A stretch of 56,019 bases of DNA from a virus, in IMG/VR virus record IMGVR_UViG_3300036402_000107, positions 1-56,019 of that record; one strand, 5' to 3'. The position numbers were made by a program, and so were the translations under genes. The notes under the pieces were generated by a model. It had not been told where the DNA came from, ran no database searches, and saw only the letters and a list, made by a program, of their open reading frames with translations. The stretch's first letter is position 1; each line of letters opens with the position of its first letter. Shown here piece by piece: positions 27,489 to 45,479 of this stretch.

Positions 27489-27972
27489 CTACGTCGCGTT
27501 GATCCGTCTAGCCCGCGACGGGCACCGCGGGGCGTGGGAGGCGATGGTGGCCCGGCTCACCCCGATGCTGCGGTCTTTGGCCCGTCGCCTTGGCCCGGTC
27601 GGGCACGAGGAGGACGCCGTGCAGGAAGCCCTGCTACGCGTCGTGCAGCAGATCGGGCGGGTCGATCTCGGCCGCGAGTCCACGGCCCGCACCTTCATCA
27701 TGAACGCGGGCGTGTTCGCGATCCGCACCTTCAACACCAAGATCATGAGGGAGAACCGACGCGACAAGCTGAAGACACACCGCACCGGCGTCGTCCAAGA
27801 CCCCGACCTCGCCGACTTCCCGCCCGTCCTGTCGCTATACTTCCGCTACATCATGGAGCACGGCACGATTCTCGGTGCCCACAAGAGCGTCGGCGACGAG
27901 TTGGGGATTCACAAGGCGTCCGCGTTCCGCCGCTTCCATCAAGAGGCGAAGACTTTCATGGAGGGACTGTGA
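27472..27972 (+). CDS. Sigma-70 family-like factor (ECF type)
   Basis: GTG at 27472 overlaps the nuclease gene by 17 bases; 166 residues. RGAWEAMVARLTPMLRSLARR and HEEDAVQEALLRVVQQ (residues 20-56) match sigma region 2 with its DxEDxxQE signature. The C-terminus has a helix-turn-helix (GDELGIHKASAFRRFHQEAK) in region 4 position. It could redirect host RNA polymerase to phage promoters. It is coupled to DNA polymerase by GTGA overlap. Confidence 0.72.
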   Translation: MSPQSSYVALIRLARDGHRGAWEAMVARLTPMLRSLARRLGPVGHEEDAVQEALLRVVQQIGRVDLGRESTARTFIMNAGVFAIRTFNTKIMRENRRDKLKTHRTGVVQDPDLADFPPVLSLYFRYIMEHGTILGAHKSVGDELGIHKASAFRRFHQEAKTFMEGL

Positions 27973-30311
27973 GAAGAGTAATCGTCGTCGGCGACATGCC
28001 GCAACCAGACCAGCAGCTGCAAGCCATCATGAAGGAGGTCTCCCCCGACTGTCTGTACTGGCACGTCAACGAGGTGGAGAAGTTCAAGCCGGTGACGGGC
28101 GACCTCATGGTGCCGCTCGGCAAGGCCGCGATCGAGACCGTGCTCCGCGTCGACAAGGCCAAGGTAGATGATCTCGTCGGGCAGCAGTACGACGCCAAGG
28201 TCGAGGGGGCGGACGTCAAGGTCATCTGCCAGTACCACCCCGGTTACCTCGCGAGGATGCAGGAGAAGAAGGGCGGAGCGACCGAGCGGGCGGTCAAAGC
28301 GTGGTTCGACGTGTGGGACACCGTGCAGGAGGTCTCCACGGGCGAGGAGGTCAAGATCCCTGAGGTGCTCGTCCTCACCGAGTACGAAGACGTCGTGGCG
28401 TGGCTGGAGTACCTGCGTGACACCGACCACGTGATCGGCTACGACTACGAGACTTGGGGCGTGAACCAGAGCGGGGAGAACACCGCACTCCGGCCGGAAC
28501 TGTGCACCGAGTTCGAGATCCTCACCATCGGCTGTGCCGTCGTCAGGGAAGACGGCACGTGGGACGCCTTCAGCTTCCCCTTCGACTGGCACAGGGAGGA
28601 CGGCACGTGGTACTGGACGGAGGAGCAGCAGCAGGTGATCGCCGACCTGTGGTTCGGGATCTACCTCGGCAAGAGGTCGATCGCTCACTTCTGCAAGTAC
28701 GAGCACAAGTGCAACCTCAAGCGGTTCGGCAGGACGAACGTCTCGCTCATGGACACGATGCTGGAGGACGACACCTACAACGAAGTGAACGACCACAAGC
28801 TTCACCGCGTCGGTGCCCGAATGGGTCTGCGGTGGATGCGGTACAAGAGCCTGAGCGACAAGACCCGCAAGAACCCGAAAGAAGCACCGCTGGACAAACT
28901 GCTGGAGTACAACGCCCTCGACGCCCTCTGCACGATCCTCTCGCACGTCAAGCTCGACGAACTCCTCAGCGAGCAGCAGCTCGACGGCGTGGCCCGGATG
29001 GAAGAGAGCTTCTGCTACTACCTCGCCAAGCTCGAGATGAACGGCATGCAGGTGGACGCGAACGAAGCGTCGATCGTCCGTGCCGAGCTTCGCGACGTCG
29101 AGATCCCCAAGCTGCAGCACGAGTTCAGCACCCTGCCCGAGATCCAGAAGGTGGAGCGGTGGGCACTCCGCACCATGAAGAAGTACCAGACCAAGGCGTA
29201 TCAGGAGGGACGCAAGCAGGTCGTCTTCTCCCCGAAGTCGCCGCCCATGATGAAGTACCTGTGCATGGACGTGCTGAAGCTGCCGATTCAGGAAGTCAAA
29301 GTCAACGGCAAGTACACTCTGAAGTTCGACAAGCGGACGCTCGAGCCATACGAGGAGGACGTCCCCGTCCTGACGCACCTCGTCAACCTTCGCCGCACGT
29401 CGGCGATGCTGACGGGCTTCCTCGACAAGTGGGAAGCCTTCGTCGACTCGCACGGCAAGGTGCACAGCCAGTACAACCAAGGCAAGGTCGTCACCGGCCG
29501 TCTCTCTTCGACCGACCCGCCCCAGCAGAACATACCCAAGAAGCACCGGGTGCGGAAGGTCTACGTCAGCCGGTACAAGGACGGCTGGCTCGTTAACGTC
29601 GACGTCAAGCAGCAAGAACCCCGCTTGCTCGCCGGATGGTCGAAGGACGAGAAGATGATCGAGGCGATCAACGGTGGGTACGACCTCCACGGCTTCGTGG
29701 CCAGCGAGATCTACGGCGTGCCCTACCTCGCCGACCAGACCGAGCACCGCGAGATCGGGAAGCGGATGAATCTCGGCATGATGTACGGGCAGACCGAGTA
29801 CGGGCTCGCCGCCAAGACCGGGATGACCGTCGAGGCAGCGGTGCGTCTCCTGAAGCTGTACGATCGCCGCTTCCCCCGGATCGCCAAGCAGCGTCAGGAG
29901 TGGCAGGCTTTCGCCGCCAAGCACGGCTACGCCGAAGACCTGTTTGGCCGTCGCCGCCACCTCCCCGACGCCCTCTCGAAGGACAAGTGGCTGCGGGAGC
30001 GGGCACTCCGCCAAGCCTGCAACTACCCGATCCAGCGTACCGCCCTCGTCTTCACGATGGTCTCGATGGGCGTGGCGATGCAGACCATCGAAGACGAGGG
30101 GCTCGAAGACGCGATGTGCGTCTGCGGCACCGTGCACGACTCGATCATCGGGGACGCCGCCGACGCCAAGTACCGCAAACGGCTGCAAGAGATCTTGGTG
30201 TACGGCGTGGAGATCCATAACAAGGCCGAGTACTGGAAGGACAGCGGCGTGCCCATGAAGGCGGACGTCGAGTGGGGGCGGAACCTCTACCAGCTGGAGA
30301 AGGCCGCATGA
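27969..30311 (+). CDS. Family A DNA polymerase with 3'-5' exonuclease
   Basis: GTG at 27969 overlaps the sigma stop; 780 residues. Residues 1-115 resemble the C-terminal half of a uracil-DNA glycosylase (VPLGKAAIETVL near 47, HPGYLAR near 90). The exonuclease domain has GYDYETW near 157 and EYNALDAL near 313. Polymerase motif A is VDVKQQEPR near 543, motif B REIGKRMNLGMMYG near 593 (Leu where E. coli Pol I has Phe762), motif C VHDSI near 721 (Ser instead of the usual Glu). It is the replicative polymerase, and a DpoZ-type candidate given the nearby PurZ-like gene. Confidence 0.92.
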   Translation: MRRVIVVGDMPQPDQQLQAIMKEVSPDCLYWHVNEVEKFKPVTGDLMVPLGKAAIETVLRVDKAKVDDLVGQQYDAKVEGADVKVICQYHPGYLARMQEKKGGATERAVKAWFDVWDTVQEVSTGEEVKIPEVLVLTEYEDVVAWLEYLRDTDHVIGYDYETWGVNQSGENTALRPELCTEFEILTIGCAVVREDGTWDAFSFPFDWHREDGTWYWTEEQQQVIADLWFGIYLGKRSIAHFCKYEHKCNLKRFGRTNVSLMDTMLEDDTYNEVNDHKLHRVGARMGLRWMRYKSLSDKTRKNPKEAPLDKLLEYNALDALCTILSHVKLDELLSEQQLDGVARMEESFCYYLAKLEMNGMQVDANEASIVRAELRDVEIPKLQHEFSTLPEIQKVERWALRTMKKYQTKAYQEGRKQVVFSPKSPPMMKYLCMDVLKLPIQEVKVNGKYTLKFDKRTLEPYEEDVPVLTHLVNLRRTSAMLTGFLDKWEAFVDSHGKVHSQYNQGKVVTGRLSSTDPPQQNIPKKHRVRKVYVSRYKDGWLVNVDVKQQEPRLLAGWSKDEKMIEAINGGYDLHGFVASEIYGVPYLADQTEHREIGKRMNLGMMYGQTEYGLAAKTGMTVEAAVRLLKLYDRRFPRIAKQRQEWQAFAAKHGYAEDLFGRRRHLPDALSKDKWLRERALRQACNYPIQRTALVFTMVSMGVAMQTIEDEGLEDAMCVCGTVHDSIIGDAADAKYRKRLQEILVYGVEIHNKAEYWKDSGVPMKADVEWGRNLYQLEKAA

Positions 30312-33433: not shown

Positions 33434-33480
33434 GGGCGGAGGTACAGCGGTGAGTTGCCGTTGCCTCCGCCCCTTTTGTT
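33434..33480 (+). terminator. Rho-independent terminator before purZ-like gene
   Basis: GGGCGGAGG pairs with CCTCCGCCC (33464-33472) with an inner CGG/CCG pair, followed by CTTTTGTT. Confidence 0.88.
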
Positions 33481-33487
33481 CGGGAGG

Positions 33488-34585
33488 ATGACCTTGATCA
33501 AGCGGAACAAAGCTAACGTGATTATCGACGGCCAGTGGGGCAGCACCGGGAAGGGTCTGCTCGCTGGCTACCTTTACGACCGGTACCCCAGCATCCTCGC
33601 TGGCGTCTGCGACTTCATGCCGAACGCGGGTCACACCGTGCACCTTCCCAACGGCACGGTCTTCGTCTCGCGGCACGTGCCGATCGCTGCGGCCTACGGG
33701 CGGATGGCCTTCATCGGCCCCCACGCCGCGATCGACATGAACACGCTGAAGAACGAGATGCGGCATCTGCGGGACTGCCGCTCCGAACCGGGCGAGGTGT
33801 ACGTGCACCCGCTCGCCTCCGTGATCTCCCCGGACGACCTGACGGCCGAGCGGATCATCTTGGGGCGGATCGCCAGCACGCAGAAGGGTGGTCACGCCTC
33901 GACGGCCCGCAAGACGATGAGGACGAAGGACGCGTCGATCGCCGGTGACTACAAGACGGCCCTCCGCGAGATCGGCGTGAACGTCGCCGACACGCACGAA
34001 TGCGTGCAGCGGACGCTGGCCCACGGCGGGACGGTGTTGATCGAGACGGCACAGGGCTTCGATCTCGGGTTGAACCACGGCAAGGAGTGGCCCTACGTCA
34101 CGGGCCGCGACTGCCTCGTGGGTCGGGCACTCGACAACGCGGGCGTCCCGATCCGCGACTGCGGCAGCGTCATCGGCTGCATGCGTACCTTCCCCATCCG
34201 CGTCGGCAACACCGACAACGGGAACAGTGGCCCGCACTACGAAGACCAGCGGGAGCTGACGTGGGAGCAGGTCTCCGAGATCGCGGGCGAGAAGATCGAG
34301 GAGCGGACGACCGTCACCAACCGCGTCCGTCGCGTCTTCACCTTCAGCGATACGCAGGCTCGTCGCTTCTTTACGTTCGTCCGCCCCGACTACCTGTTCC
34401 TCAACTTCTGGAACCAGACCAACGCCGAGCCTCAGGGCGAGCGGAGCAAGCGTCTCTGGCACATCAAGGCACTGGCGGCTCACCACGGCTGCCAGCTCCG
34501 CCTGATCGGCACCGGCCCGAAGTCCGGCGACGTGATCGACCTCGAAGACCCGACCGCCTCACAGATTGGAGTGCTGCACCTTTGA
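33488..34585 (+). CDS. purZ: Adenylosuccinate synthetase-like enzyme, PurZ type
   Basis: GGAGG precedes the ATG at 33488; 365 residues. The P-loop reads DGQWGSTGKG (residues 15-24) where PurA has GDEGKGK: the catalytic Asp is replaced by Ser, the change reported for PurZ enzymes. NAGHT keeps the His near 47, and IETAQGFDLGLNHG and TTVTNRVRRVFTF with RPDYLFLNF are shared with phage PurZ proteins as I recall them. PurZ joins dGMP to aspartate in the route to 2-aminoadenine. Adjacent kinase and dUTPase genes fit. Confidence 0.78.
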   Translation: MTLIKRNKANVIIDGQWGSTGKGLLAGYLYDRYPSILAGVCDFMPNAGHTVHLPNGTVFVSRHVPIAAAYGRMAFIGPHAAIDMNTLKNEMRHLRDCRSEPGEVYVHPLASVISPDDLTAERIILGRIASTQKGGHASTARKTMRTKDASIAGDYKTALREIGVNVADTHECVQRTLAHGGTVLIETAQGFDLGLNHGKEWPYVTGRDCLVGRALDNAGVPIRDCGSVIGCMRTFPIRVGNTDNGNSGPHYEDQRELTWEQVSEIAGEKIEERTTVTNRVRRVFTFSDTQARRFFTFVRPDYLFLNFWNQTNAEPQGERSKRLWHIKALAAHHGCQLRLIGTGPKSGDVIDLEDPTASQIGVLHL

Positions 34586-35124
34586 CACTCGTCTCCTACA
34601 TCGGTTCCGTGGGTTCGGGCAAGACGACCCGCGTGAAGGACTACCCCAAGAAGGAAGGGCGTGGGGACGGCTGCATCCTCTTCATGCCCGGTCAGATCCT
34701 CCGGGCTGCGATCGGCCCGGGGTTCTTTGCGACGGAGGACGGAAACGCACCGCGTGTCTGCGATGAGTTCGTGTTCGGGCAGTGGCTGCAGCACTTCGAG
34801 TTTGCCCGGAAGACGGGGGCGGTGACGGTCGTCTCGGACGGCTGGCCGCGAACCGCCCTGCAGGCTGCAGCCCTCGTGCAGTGGCTCCACCGGAGCGGGA
34901 ACCGCATCACCGTCTACCCGCACCACCTGATCTGCTCGGAGGACGAGTGGGAGCGTCGTCTCAAGGGAGACCGTTGGCTGCAGAACCCCGAGCTGGAGGC
35001 GATCGACCGCCGACGTTACGCACAGAGCATCGAGGACTCGCTCGGCTCGATCTCTGTGCTCCGCTCCACCGGCGAACCCTTCGTCAAGGCCGTACAGATT
35101 CACATGGAGAACGCACCCCAATGA
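34582..35124 (+). CDS. P-loop nucleoside monophosphate kinase-like protein
   Basis: TTG at 34582 overlaps the PurZ stop, with GGAG upstream. The 180-residue product begins SYIGSVGSGKTTR, a Walker A (GxxGSGKTT), and has SDGWPRT near 85, the Asp-Gly-x-Pro-Arg pattern of adenylate kinases. It could phosphorylate the PurZ pathway product or ordinary dNMPs (inference). Confidence 0.72.
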   Translation: MTLVSYIGSVGSGKTTRVKDYPKKEGRGDGCILFMPGQILRAAIGPGFFATEDGNAPRVCDEFVFGQWLQHFEFARKTGAVTVVSDGWPRTALQAAALVQWLHRSGNRITVYPHHLICSEDEWERRLKGDRWLQNPELEAIDRRRYAQSIEDSLGSISVLRSTGEPFVKAVQIHMENAPQ

Positions 35125-35774
35125 AGACCGTTCAAGAGATCATCTCAACGCTCGCGAGATCCGTGCAGACCATGAACGGTCGGCACGGCTCGTCTCACGC
35201 CGTGACCGCTCAACTCGAGTTTGAAGAGAGCATGCTGGAACTCTTCAGGGCTAGGAACGGTGACGCCGAGTTTCGCGAGCCGATGCAGGTCATGTACCGC
35301 GACGATCTGGTGCGGACGCTGGCACCGCTGAAGCACGCCAAGCCGGGCGATTGCGGCTTCGACCTCGCCTACGCCCCCGAGAACTCGAGCGGGTCGGGGT
35401 CTTCCGCCGCGATGCTCCCCATCCGCATCCTGCCCGGCACTTTCAAGCTCATCCCCACCGGCGTCTACGTCAAGATCCCCGATGGCTACTTCGGCCTGCT
35501 CTGCGGTCGCTCCTCGACTTTCGGGAAGCGTGGCCTCTTCGTGGTCGAGTCCCGCATCGACAGCGGGTACACCGGCGAGCTGTTCGTGAAGCTCTGGCAC
35601 CCCGCTGTCTCCGGGGGCGACTTCGAGCAGCCGGTCGTCCCCGCCGTCATCGAGCCTTGGCAACGCGTGGCTCAGCTTGTGTTGATCCCCTTCAACTCGC
35701 CCCTTCTGGAGATCGTCGATGCCCTCCCCGCAACGCAACGAGGAAACACGGGTTTCGGCTCAAGCGGAGTTTGA
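35121..35774 (+). CDS. dUTPase-family protein
   Basis: The ATG overlaps the kinase stop; 217 residues. The five dUTPase motifs appear in order: GDCGFDLA near 75, GRSSTFGKRG near 128, RIDSGYTGELFVKL near 146, QRVAQLVLIP near 180, RGNTGFGSSGV at the C-terminus. An N-terminal 65-residue helical extension is extra. It would remove dUTP and supply dUMP; a different base preference cannot be excluded given its neighbour. Confidence 0.82.
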   Translation: MKTVQEIISTLARSVQTMNGRHGSSHAVTAQLEFEESMLELFRARNGDAEFREPMQVMYRDDLVRTLAPLKHAKPGDCGFDLAYAPENSSGSGSSAAMLPIRILPGTFKLIPTGVYVKIPDGYFGLLCGRSSTFGKRGLFVVESRIDSGYTGELFVKLWHPAVSGGDFEQPVVPAVIEPWQRVAQLVLIPFNSPLLEIVDALPATQRGNTGFGSSGV

Positions 35775-41275: not shown

Positions 41276-41752
41276 ATGGCAGCAGCGACCATGGAAGCGA
41301 AGAAGCCCAACCCCTACGAAGCCCCGAAGATCGACTGGCACGCGGCCGAGCGGTTCTTCCTCTTCGACCCGTCCCTCCCGTCGATCAAGGACGTCGCCGT
41401 CAAGTACGGCGTCAGCTACCTGACGGCCCACAAGCACGCGACCCGTGGCCGGTGGGTGAAGCGGCGGAGCACGGAGCACAAGAGGCTGCACGAGAGGGCG
41501 TTGGAGGAGTGCCGCAAGCTGTACGTCGAGGATCGCGTCCTCCGTCTGCGTAGGCTGACGAGGCTGATCGACGCGGCACTCGACGACGCGGTGACCGAAC
41601 CGGGCGAGGCGGTGCCCCACATCCTCAAGCTCATACGGGTCGAGCAGGAGATCATCGAGGGGCTGCCGTCCGATCGGGCACGCGACCGAGTACTACGTGA
41701 ACACGTCGATCGAGCACTGACGCTCGGCGGCTTACACAGGAGAGAAGAATGA
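41276..41752 (+). CDS. HTH DNA-binding protein
   Basis: 158 residues. IKDVAVKYGVSYLTAHKHATRGRW near 35-60 is a helix-turn-helix; the rest is helical and Arg-rich. It starts 54 bases from the leftward promoter PL and is divergent to it, the place of a regulator. It also resembles small terminase-type HTH proteins, but a better terminase small subunit exists at 53716. Confidence 0.6.
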   Translation: MAAATMEAKKPNPYEAPKIDWHAAERFFLFDPSLPSIKDVAVKYGVSYLTAHKHATRGRWVKRRSTEHKRLHERALEECRKLYVEDRVLRLRRLTRLIDAALDDAVTEPGEAVPHILKLIRVEQEIIEGLPSDRARDRVLREHVDRALTLGGLHRREE

Positions 41753-42489
41753 GCGACGAGACAGGGAACGCGGGGAAGCAGAACCCCAAGCACCGGGCCA
41801 AGTACCGCGTCTTCGTGAGCGGACGGTACGCGAGCAGGAAGCGGGCGTCGGACTTCACGCAGGCCATGTGCCAGCAGAACGACCAGACCGTCTGCCCGCT
41901 GTACTGGTTCCTGCACGACCGGGACGACGACCAGCTCACACCGGCCGAGAAGCTGGGGCTGTCCACGACGATCCTCCGGGCGATCCGGGAGTGCGACTAC
42001 TTCGTGCACCTCCACGAGAACGTGCCGCAGCGGGGCGGGAACCTCGTGGAGCTGGGGATGGCCCTCGCACTCGGCAAGACCGTAATCGCCGTCCTCCCGC
42101 ACGTCGACGCCCTCGTCGCCCCGCCGACCCCGACAAAGGACGTCCCGAACCAGAAGATCCCGCCCGTCACCCGTCAGATGGTCCCCATGGGCGGCGTCTT
42201 CCACGAGCTTCCCCAGTGCTACGTGGTGAGGACGGACGACGAAGCCCTCGCCACGCTCCACCGCTGGATCGTCCGGAAGGCCAACCCCTCCCCCGAGTCC
42301 CGTGGGGTGCAGCTCGTGCCCTCCCATGTGGCCGACGTCGGGGAGGAAGGTCAGGTGGTCTACGGCGGCCTAGGGCTCGTCCCCAAGCCCGCGTCGATGA
42401 ACACGCCCGTTCTCGGCCCGGTCGCCGTGGAGTACCGGGCGGACGCGGCGGAGCAGAAGTCGCCCAAGAGTCGTAAACGCAACACGTAG
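41749..42489 (+). CDS. Nucleoside 2-deoxyribosyltransferase-like protein
   Basis: The ATG overlaps the previous stop; 246 residues. The core YRVFVSGRYASRK, ECDYFVHLHENV and GGNLVELGMALALGKTVIAV matches the deoxyribosyltransferase fold (flavodoxin-like, with Glu in the NLVELG motif). These enzymes swap or remove nucleobases of deoxynucleosides. In this phage it could adjust nucleotide pools, possibly linked to the modified-base pathway (inference). Confidence 0.68.
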   Translation: MSDETGNAGKQNPKHRAKYRVFVSGRYASRKRASDFTQAMCQQNDQTVCPLYWFLHDRDDDQLTPAEKLGLSTTILRAIRECDYFVHLHENVPQRGGNLVELGMALALGKTVIAVLPHVDALVAPPTPTKDVPNQKIPPVTRQMVPMGGVFHELPQCYVVRTDDEALATLHRWIVRKANPSPESRGVQLVPSHVADVGEEGQVVYGGLGLVPKPASMNTPVLGPVAVEYRADAAEQKSPKSRKRNT

Positions 42490-44570: not shown

Positions 44571-44731
44571 GCGACGTGATCCACCCGATGTACCCCGTTG
44601 ACTGCGACATGCTGGGCGATCCGTCCGAAGACCATCATAAAGGAGAGCACCGTGGCCGAAACCGTTACACTCATGCGACCGAACTACGGGCAGCACGCCC
44701 TGCGGCTCGTTCCCGATCAGGACAACTATAA
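44567..44731 (+). CDS. Possible small protein overlapping protease gene
   Basis: ATG overlaps the preceding stop (ATGA) with AGAGG upstream; 54 residues, His/Arg-rich in the second half, where it overlaps the protease gene. Real if coupled; uncertain otherwise. Confidence 0.35.
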   Translation: MSDVIHPMYPVDCDMLGDPSEDHHKGEHRGRNRYTHATELRAARPAARSRSGQL

Positions 44732-45479
44732 GGGCACCGGGCGTCTGCGGGCAATCGACCTGCGAGACGACCGCTTCCGTCTGGGCAAGGTAGACCGCCA
44801 GCTCAAGGCCGCTCGCGTCCTCAAGACCAGCAACGCGGGCAAGACCTTCCGGCATTGGTGGATCGACCGGGATCTCCCCATCGACCAGATGCAGACCTCC
44901 GCCTGCACCGGCTTCTCGACGGCTGGCGTGATCATGGTCGGCCCCGTTACGCACGAGGGCTACCGGACGTTCGAGGAGGGCAACAAGCTTGGGAGGAGGC
45001 TGTACGCCGGTGCCCTCGACAACGACGAGTGGCAGGGCAACGACCCGTGCTGTGGCTCCTCCGTCCGTGCCGCCGTGAAGACCGCCGTGGACGCCGGGTT
45101 CTTCAAGAGCTTCGCGTGGGCGTACACCGTGGACGAGATCGTCGAGTGGCTGCTCCGCTTCGGCCCGGGGATCTTCGGCATCGTCTGGCCCGACTCCTTC
45201 ATGCGTACCGACAAGCACGGCTACCTGCAGATCGGCGACACCGCAACGCTGAGCAACCCGCACGCGGCGGGCCACGCGATCGCAGCGGTCGGCGTGAACA
45301 CGAGCTACCGCAACCCGGACGGCACCAAGGGCTTCGTCGAGCTGCTCAACTCGTGGGGCAAGCCGTGGGGCAGGGAGGGCAACGGCACCGCCCGTCTCAC
45401 CTTGGCCACCGTGCCCGCCCTCCTCGCCGCCGATGGGGAGTTCTGCTGCCCGGTCGATCAGAAGATCAAGGCGGCGTAA
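44652..45479 (+). CDS. Papain-like cysteine protease (C1 type)
   Basis: GTG at 44652 with AAGGAG upstream; 275 residues. MQTSACTGFST near 80 holds the catalytic Cys after Gln, GHAIAAVGVN near 206 the His, and LLNSWGKPWGREGNG near 231 the Asn of papain-like peptidases. No signal peptide is seen, so it may act in the host cytoplasm. It is unusual for a phage genome. Confidence 0.8.
   Translation: MAETVTLMRPNYGQHALRLVPDQDNYKGTGRLRAIDLRDDRFRLGKVDRQLKAARVLKTSNAGKTFRHWWIDRDLPIDQMQTSACTGFSTAGVIMVGPVTHEGYRTFEEGNKLGRRLYAGALDNDEWQGNDPCCGSSVRAAVKTAVDAGFFKSFAWAYTVDEIVEWLLRFGPGIFGIVWPDSFMRTDKHGYLQIGDTATLSNPHAAGHAIAAVGVNTSYRNPDGTKGFVELLNSWGKPWGREGNGTARLTLATVPALLAADGEFCCPVDQKIKAA

Follow-up and report, generated by a model that had tools for sequence, protein, structure and literature searches.

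A candidate third gene cluster for 2-aminoadenine DNA in an uncultured phage, combining PurZ with a putative dZMP kinase and a DutZ-like enzyme

Introduction

Two sets of partner genes for 2-aminoadenine (Z) in phage DNA are described in the open-access literature, DatZ/MazZ with PurZ and DutZ/DmtZ with PurZ0. The phages phiVC8, S-2L and SH-Ab 15497 carry purZ-mazZ-datZ, with a DpoZ-2 polymerase in phiVC8 and SH-Ab, and the actinophages Ghobes, Wayne and Archimedes carry purZ0-dutZ-dmtZ, optionally followed by DUF5664, with a DpoZ-1 polymerase (PMC12884076). The DutZ enzymes of Ghobes and Wayne hydrolyse dATP, dGTP and dUTP, replacing both DatZ and MazZ (PMC12884076). Here, we analysed a three-gene cluster (positions 33488-35774) in the virus record IMGVR_UViG_3300036402_000107, in which purZ is followed by an adenylate-kinase-like gene and a dUTPase-family gene. 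The whole record of 56,019 bases, with a G+C content of 64%, is referred to as the window; it comes from an uncultured phage and may be incomplete.

The region is probably a third kind of Z-DNA gene cluster, in which PurZ would act together with a dedicated kinase for the deoxynucleoside monophosphate of 2-aminoadenine (dZMP) and a DutZ-like dATP/dGTP hydrolase. It resembles the phiVC8, S-2L and SH-Ab clusters in its PurZ, with Ser for the catalytic Asp and the same dGMP- and ATP-pocket residues, and in its setting among replication genes. In contrast to them, it has neither DatZ nor a MazZ/DUF550 protein but a kinase and a dUTPase-family gene instead, and its family A DNA polymerase (PolA) lies outside DpoZ-2. 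Like the PurZ0 cluster, it has a dUTPase-family enzyme where other clusters have DatZ and MazZ, and the two enzymes belong to one clade; however, its PurZ belongs to another branch, its PolA is not DpoZ-1 and it has no clear DmtZ. No kinase was found in the PurZ0 cluster, where DutZ occurs with PurZ0, whereas the window dUTPase occurs with a PurZ of the kinase-associated clade. Phosphorylation of dZMP is left to the host in the open-access literature on the two described sets: the word "kinase" occurs zero times in PMC12884076 and PMC8342488, and "adenylate kinase" zero times in the open-access PurZ literature, a scope outside which the founding papers in subscription journals lie.

Results

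A PurZ-type synthetase heads the cluster

The three open reading frames (ORFs) of the cluster follow each other in series, each pair overlapping by 4 nucleotides (TTGA between purZ and the kinase gene, ATGA between the kinase and dUTPase genes; Table 1). The start of purZ is uncertain, as an in-frame TTG lies upstream at 33455. A sequence-only reading of the window had delimited and described this cluster correctly; it is the gene overlaps that suggest the co-expression of the synthetase with the kinase and dUTPase which it stated.

Table 1. Coordinates and properties of the features discussed.
Feature	Coordinates	Strand	Details
purZ-type succino-2-amino-deoxyadenylate synthetase	33488..34585	+	365 aa, ATG, GQWGSTGKG
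Adenylate-kinase-fold nucleoside monophosphate (NMP) kinase, proposed dZMP kinase	34582..35124	+	180 aa, TTG start
dUTPase-family protein, DutZ-containing clade; proposed dATP/dGTP (and dUTP) pyrophosphohydrolase	35121..35774	+	217 aa, ATG
DNA polymerase family A, 3'-5' exonuclease motif (YDYET), weak type-4 uracil-DNA glycosylase-like N-terminal region	27969..30311	+	third Z-associated PolA lineage
Nucleoside 2-deoxyribosyltransferase-superfamily-like protein	41749..42489	+	246 aa; GGNLVELGMALALGK; weak candidate for DmtZ-like role; no cluster linkage seen in window
Ser-variant cellular contigs (bacterial/archaeal)			L096, L097, L098, L101, L103, L104, L107, L109, L110, L092-L095, others

The P-loop-like site of the synthetase reads GQWGSTGKG, compared with TQWGDEGKG in E. 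coli PurA, so that Ser19 replaces the catalytic Asp, which is kept in all PurA controls. The NCBIfam PurZ model (NF038379) matched the protein at 3e-62 (210.5 bits), PurA models scored far lower, and phrog_1211 matched at 3e-57. Profile ranking against the PDB placed phiVC8 PurZ (6fm1, 7e-47) and S-2L PurZ (5e-34) ahead of archaeal PurA (2e-18), Archimedes PurZ0 (1e-17) and E. coli PurA (~1e-8). The pocket residues named for S-2L PurZ (PMC8342488) map to S19, T274, N306, F307, N309 and P344 of the window protein; the first five are of the PurZ type, the residues of E. coli PurA at these positions being D, G, T, K and D. The position of N309 is Asn in phiVC8 and SH-Ab but Asp in PurA and PurZ0, and the Asn therefore points to (d)ATP as the likely energy donor. 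The conserved pocket residues would fit an activity on dGMP, Asp and ATP.

In a tree of 64 proteins, PurA split off with a support of 100/100, and the window protein fell within a 13-row kinase-associated clade (100/99) on the side of phiVC8, S-2L and SH-Ab PurZ; a quick PurZ tree of 118 rows agreed. Membership of PurZ0 was rejected, since PurZ0 (GSEAKG) forms a separate 100/100 clade. Judged by motif, pocket and tree, the enzyme is an ordinary PurZ rather than PurA or PurZ0, and the catalytic Asp is lost, as the sequence-only reading had noticed.

PurA homologues in which Ser replaces the catalytic Asp, in most cases as GSEGKGK, are also found on chromosomes of Paenibacillus, Heliobacterium, Granulicella, Mesorhizobium, Nanoarchaeota and others. 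A normal full-length PurA was present as well in five of the seven searched genomes with such a homologue, and no Z partner gene was detected near the homologues in the stretches fetched. Ser at this site is thus by itself no proof of Z-DNA.

A kinase gene is conserved beside purZ and does not co-occur with DatZ

A scan of IMG/VR with a PurZ alignment yielded 449 relatives, and the best 80 of the 449 loci were examined over at most 10 kb on each side. Partner genes were assigned by six-frame hidden Markov model searches and by inspection of the ORFs downstream of purZ, and were counted over 79 loci, excluding the window's own phage. That phage is present in at least one further assembled contig, because the PurZ encoded on an 11 kb contig (L002, IMGVR_UViG_3300041409_000393) is 100% identical to that of the window.

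A kinase-like gene directly follows purZ in 37 of the 79 loci, often with a 4-nucleotide overlap, and DatZ occurs in 33; the two are never found together (0/79), and nine loci, some of them on short or truncated contigs, have neither. After removal of PurZ proteins more than 90% alike, the counts were 29 with the kinase, 30 with DatZ, none with both and seven with neither. In these loci, kinase and DatZ are therefore mutually exclusive, essentially between two lineages. Loci collected with PurZ as the query are bound to be rich in PurZ, and a search in the reverse direction therefore matters. With the close kinase subfamily (A5) as the query, 11 loci were retrieved, all with an adjoining PurZ, including one truncated locus in which PurZ was confirmed by tblastn. 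This search covered the close subfamily, the whole and more divergent kinase alignment having no conserved stretch of 7-10 columns; the window kinase alone retrieved the same phage only. The kinase is a conserved component of the cluster and not a bystander, a point that the sequence-only reading had overlooked.

Fusions further tie the kinase to dNTP hydrolysis. A single ORF encodes the kinase together with a trimeric dUTPase (PF00692, 1e-24) in L074 and L077. Seven other loci (L035, L036, L037, L039, L040, L045 and L051) have a dUTPase_2-like domain after the kinase within one ORF; this domain matched PF08761 at 1e-8 to 2e-7 in the four fusions tested. A similar but more divergent domain is fused to the kinase in L047, and L038 and L048 encode the dUTPase_2-like domain as a separate gene. 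L051 has a third fused domain that appears deoxyribosyltransferase-like by eye (VYLAGPI ... GAHAEIFQA) and received no Pfam name. Three members of the window's clade are large phages of 126-136 kb, in which no dut was detected beside the kinase and a PF00692 protein is encoded elsewhere.

Several other arrangements were observed. The PurZ locus of L042 and L043 lacks both the kinase and DatZ but encodes a dUTPase together with a DUF5664-like protein, and is possibly a fourth kind of partner set. Bacillus phage vB_BpsS-140 (MH884512), the closest cultured kinase-bearing phage found, carries, like the window, a PurZ-like gene and an adk-dut pair; unlike in the window, its purZ lies ~9 kb from adk-dut, has a GSEGKG motif and occupies a deeper PurZ branch. 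Dulem virus 40 (L147), which has no PurZ, encodes a short "nucleotide kinase" gene that overlaps its dUTPase gene. The genes that directly follow purZ0 in Ghobes, Archimedes, Wayne and Goodman were considered as kinase homologues and rejected, as none matched the kinase model.

The kinase has a predicted adenylate kinase fold

Alone, the window kinase was weakly recognised, with adenylate kinase models at ~0.002 and no Pfam match. Its family assignment depends on its homologues: 25 of the 32 family members match ADK, and the family profile retrieved adenylate kinases from the PDB at 8e-16. An AlphaFold model built with the 32-row alignment had a predicted local distance difference test (pLDDT) score of 90.8, and its best structural match was an adenylate kinase (Z score 15.9, root-mean-square deviation 3.2 over 158 residues), with UMP/CMP kinases within ~1 of that Z score. 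Within the family, G13, K14, G37, P89, R90 and Q94 are invariant and G8, R41, D86, R126 and R130 nearly so. The protein is thus modelled as an adenylate kinase fold with P-loop, Arg, DGxPR and Gln motifs, as in cellular adenylate kinases, with which it shares only ~20% identity and compared with which its NMP-binding region is shorter. Moreover, in the loci examined, the family adjoins PurZ or is fused to dNTP hydrolase domains, unlike the cellular enzymes.

The invariant Q94 presumably corresponds to Gln92 of E. coli Adk. That residue reads N1 and N6 of adenine, an edge which is identical in Z and different in G. Nearly all family members have another residue, such as Pro (Pro36 in the window kinase), Val, Ile or Met, in place of the Thr that precedes the conserved Gly and that we take to be T31 of E. 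coli Adk. These residues would fit dZMP (or dAMP) better than dGMP. Because the invariant Gln would read the 6-amino/N1 edge common to A and Z, a preference for dZMP is our most specific guess, in which both the substrate and the direction of the reaction are inferred; dZMP is proposed over dAMP because a dAMP kinase would undo the action of a dATPase.

The dUTPase-family protein groups with DutZ

The third protein of the cluster matched the Pfam dUTPase family at 4.7e-14. Its best phage matches were Microbacterium phage dUTPases (E down to 3e-24), such as that of Goodman, a purZ0 phage, with which it shares 41% identity; T5-like dUTPases matched at ~2e-13. A dUTPase tree placed all Z-associated proteins in one clade (ultrafast bootstrap/Shimodaira-Hasegawa-like approximate likelihood ratio test [SH-aLRT] support 96/96), comprising those of the window, the kinase clade, the PurZ0 phages (DutZ), vB_BpsS-140 and Streptomyces phage Galactica; Galactica encodes a PF00709 protein as well. 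Bacterial dUTPases, that of E. coli among them, and those of phages without PurZ fall outside this clade, whose sister is the dUTPase of Dulem virus 40. Because it shares a clade with the assayed DutZ, the window protein is the strongest candidate for the dATP/dGTP hydrolase that seemed to be missing. The sequence-only reading had proposed that a different enzyme might do the work of DatZ and MazZ and had passed over the dUTPase, which most likely is that enzyme.

A short uracil-reading hairpin was considered as a DutZ signature and rejected: RSS-x13-ID is present in nearly all Z-associated dUTPases readable there (x12 in vB_BpsS-140, longer in Galactica), but lentiviral dUTPases and that of the PurZ-less Arthrobacter phage Beagle are also short, so that the hairpin is not diagnostic.

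The polymerase belongs to a third clade

A family A polymerase (DNA_pol_A, 8e-66) is encoded 3 kb upstream of purZ, at about 27969-30311. The PolAs of the kinase clade form a clade of their own (SH-aLRT 99), with the window protein in a 100-supported subgroup; the clade also takes in L042 and L044, two PurZ loci without kinase or DatZ. It is separate from DpoZ-1, DpoZ-2 and the PolAs of four phages without PurZ, was found here only in PurZ loci, and follows the kinase clade. The NCBIfam DpoZ model scored 78.6 bits, compared with 500. DpoZ identity was rejected, as the protein lies outside both DpoZ clades and has no Tyr-to-Phe change, the one helix-O change common to both (PMC8599892). Thus, a family A polymerase does lie near the cluster, as the sequence-only reading had stated, but its use there as an argument for Z is not supported in that form. 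The window PolA may represent a third recruitment to Z use, or it may be non-discriminating.

The N-terminal part of the polymerase (27969-28330) shows weak similarity to type-4 uracil-DNA glycosylases (4e-4), and the protein may carry such a domain. A sigma-70 region-2 protein is encoded directly upstream (27544-27972); vB_BpsS-140 has sigma factor genes near its own purZ and dut.

Absent partners and other genes of the window

Six-frame searches of the record gave no match to DatZ, MazZ, DUF5664 or DmtZ with homemade models, or to HD_3, MazG, dGTP_diPhyd_N or dATP-dGTP_PPHyd with Pfam models, which upholds the earlier remark that DatZ and MazZ are not evident. As the record may be incomplete, the absence of DatZ and MazZ is an absence from the record only; the relatives agree with it.

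The nucleoside 2-deoxyribosyltransferase-like protein scored 25.5 bits against PF05014, below the cut-off of 28.8. It had no direct match to DmtZ of Ghobes or Wayne, and no relatives were found in viral contigs or phages. Its single-sequence AlphaFold model (pLDDT 36) was too poor for fold comparison. The protein encoded at 44652-45479 is papain-like by eye (QTSACTGFS, GHAIAAVG, NSWGKPWG) and is possibly a phage C1-type cysteine peptidase.

Discussion

PurZ identity, the dUTPase clade, the adenylate kinase fold and the co-occurrence, fusions and DatZ exclusion of the kinase, all of them drawn from sequence, structure prediction and phylogeny, suggest the following pathway. PurZ would couple dGMP and aspartate using (d)ATP to give N6-succino-2-amino-dAMP, which host PurB would cleave to dZMP. 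The phage adenylate-kinase-like enzyme would convert dZMP to dZDP, otherwise the task of a host kinase, and host nucleoside diphosphate kinase would complete dZTP. The dUTPase-family enzyme, acting as a DutZ, would remove the competing dATP by hydrolysing it to dAMP and would supply PurZ with dGMP from dGTP, so that DatZ and MazZ would not be needed. Finally, the phage's own PolA would incorporate Z. The 2-aminoadenine pathway suggested in the sequence-only reading is thus supported as likely.

Several observations weigh against this pathway. That Z is present in the DNA of an uncultured phage is something we infer. The PurZ score of 210.5 bits is below the curated NF038379 cut-off of 300, which is a naming threshold and not a functional feature, and the PurZ model is still the best-scoring by far. 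The kinase/DatZ division needs just two changes on the PurZ tree; it is therefore a lineage split rather than 37 independent events, and a Fisher test overstates independence. A kinase that also accepted dAMP would undo the dATPase action. In the dUTPase tree the window protein does not come out as sister to DutZ with confidence, although a joint clade was not rejected (approximately unbiased test, p = 0.456), and it may remain mainly a dUTPase, since DutZ enzymes hydrolyse dUTP too. The PolA keeps the steric-gate Tyr (NLGMMYG) in place of the change found in the DpoZ clades, and so gives no indication of a polymerase preference for Z.

Alternatively, PurZ may make Z while the kinase is a general purine/dNMP kinase, for example recycling ADP/dADP or dGMP to boost nucleotide supply, the dUTPase is ordinary, and dATP is lowered solely by PurZ's own use of it. 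Adenylate-kinase-like genes and dUTPases are common among phage nucleotide genes, and the PurZ of S-2L is capable of dATPase activity (PMC8342488), with the ATP-pocket residues conserved in the window. However, in the reverse search the tested kinase subfamily was found only at PurZ loci, the kinase does not occur together with DatZ and is fused to dUTPase-type domains, and the members of the dUTPase clade all come from PurZ phages, apart from the sister sequence of Dulem virus 40; we consider this explanation unlikely. An enzyme set that yields a mixed A/Z genome, with a polymerase not selective for Z and dATP partly depleted, for partial or regulatory use of Z, would agree with the retained Tyr, the position of the PolA outside DpoZ-1 and DpoZ-2 and the missing DatZ. 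It seems more doubtful still, as S-2L, aided by dATP removal, replaces all adenine although its polymerase (PrimPol) accepts both A and Z (PMC8065100, PMC8342488), and as the PolAs of the kinase clade, which form a coherent lineage, could have become selective on their own. Finally, the enzyme could be a PurA relative with an ordinary or other function, such as host purine supply, in a phage with normal DNA. The many bacterial and archaeal Ser variants lacking a detected Z-cluster partner, some in genomes that hold a normal PurA elsewhere, lend this some plausibility, but in the tree the window enzyme falls among characterised PurZ, away from most cellular forms, and it has partners of the DutZ clade and the PolA lineage, which makes such a function very improbable.

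Returning to the proposed PurZ-kinase-DutZ cluster, a bolder reading, to which we give somewhat less than even weight, is that the kinase may be the first dedicated dZMP kinase, descended from an adenylate kinase and able to distinguish 2-aminoadenine from adenine. Together with DutZ and a Z-using PolA recruited independently of the two DpoZ lineages, it would define a third Z-DNA pathway. This pathway might be the ancestral one; it would be common among environmental phages, some with genomes well above 100 kb, and DatZ would have taken over later in the S-2L/phiVC8 lineage.

The cluster adds to the two described sets a third, large, previously undescribed and widespread partner set, with a phage-encoded kinase proposed at the dZMP step. 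It also points to a member of the dUTPase family as a candidate for the dATPase that was missing, and brings in a third polymerase lineage. These proteins are candidate enzymes for Z-DNA production in vitro or in cells, for which the kinase fusions offer small, testable proteins.
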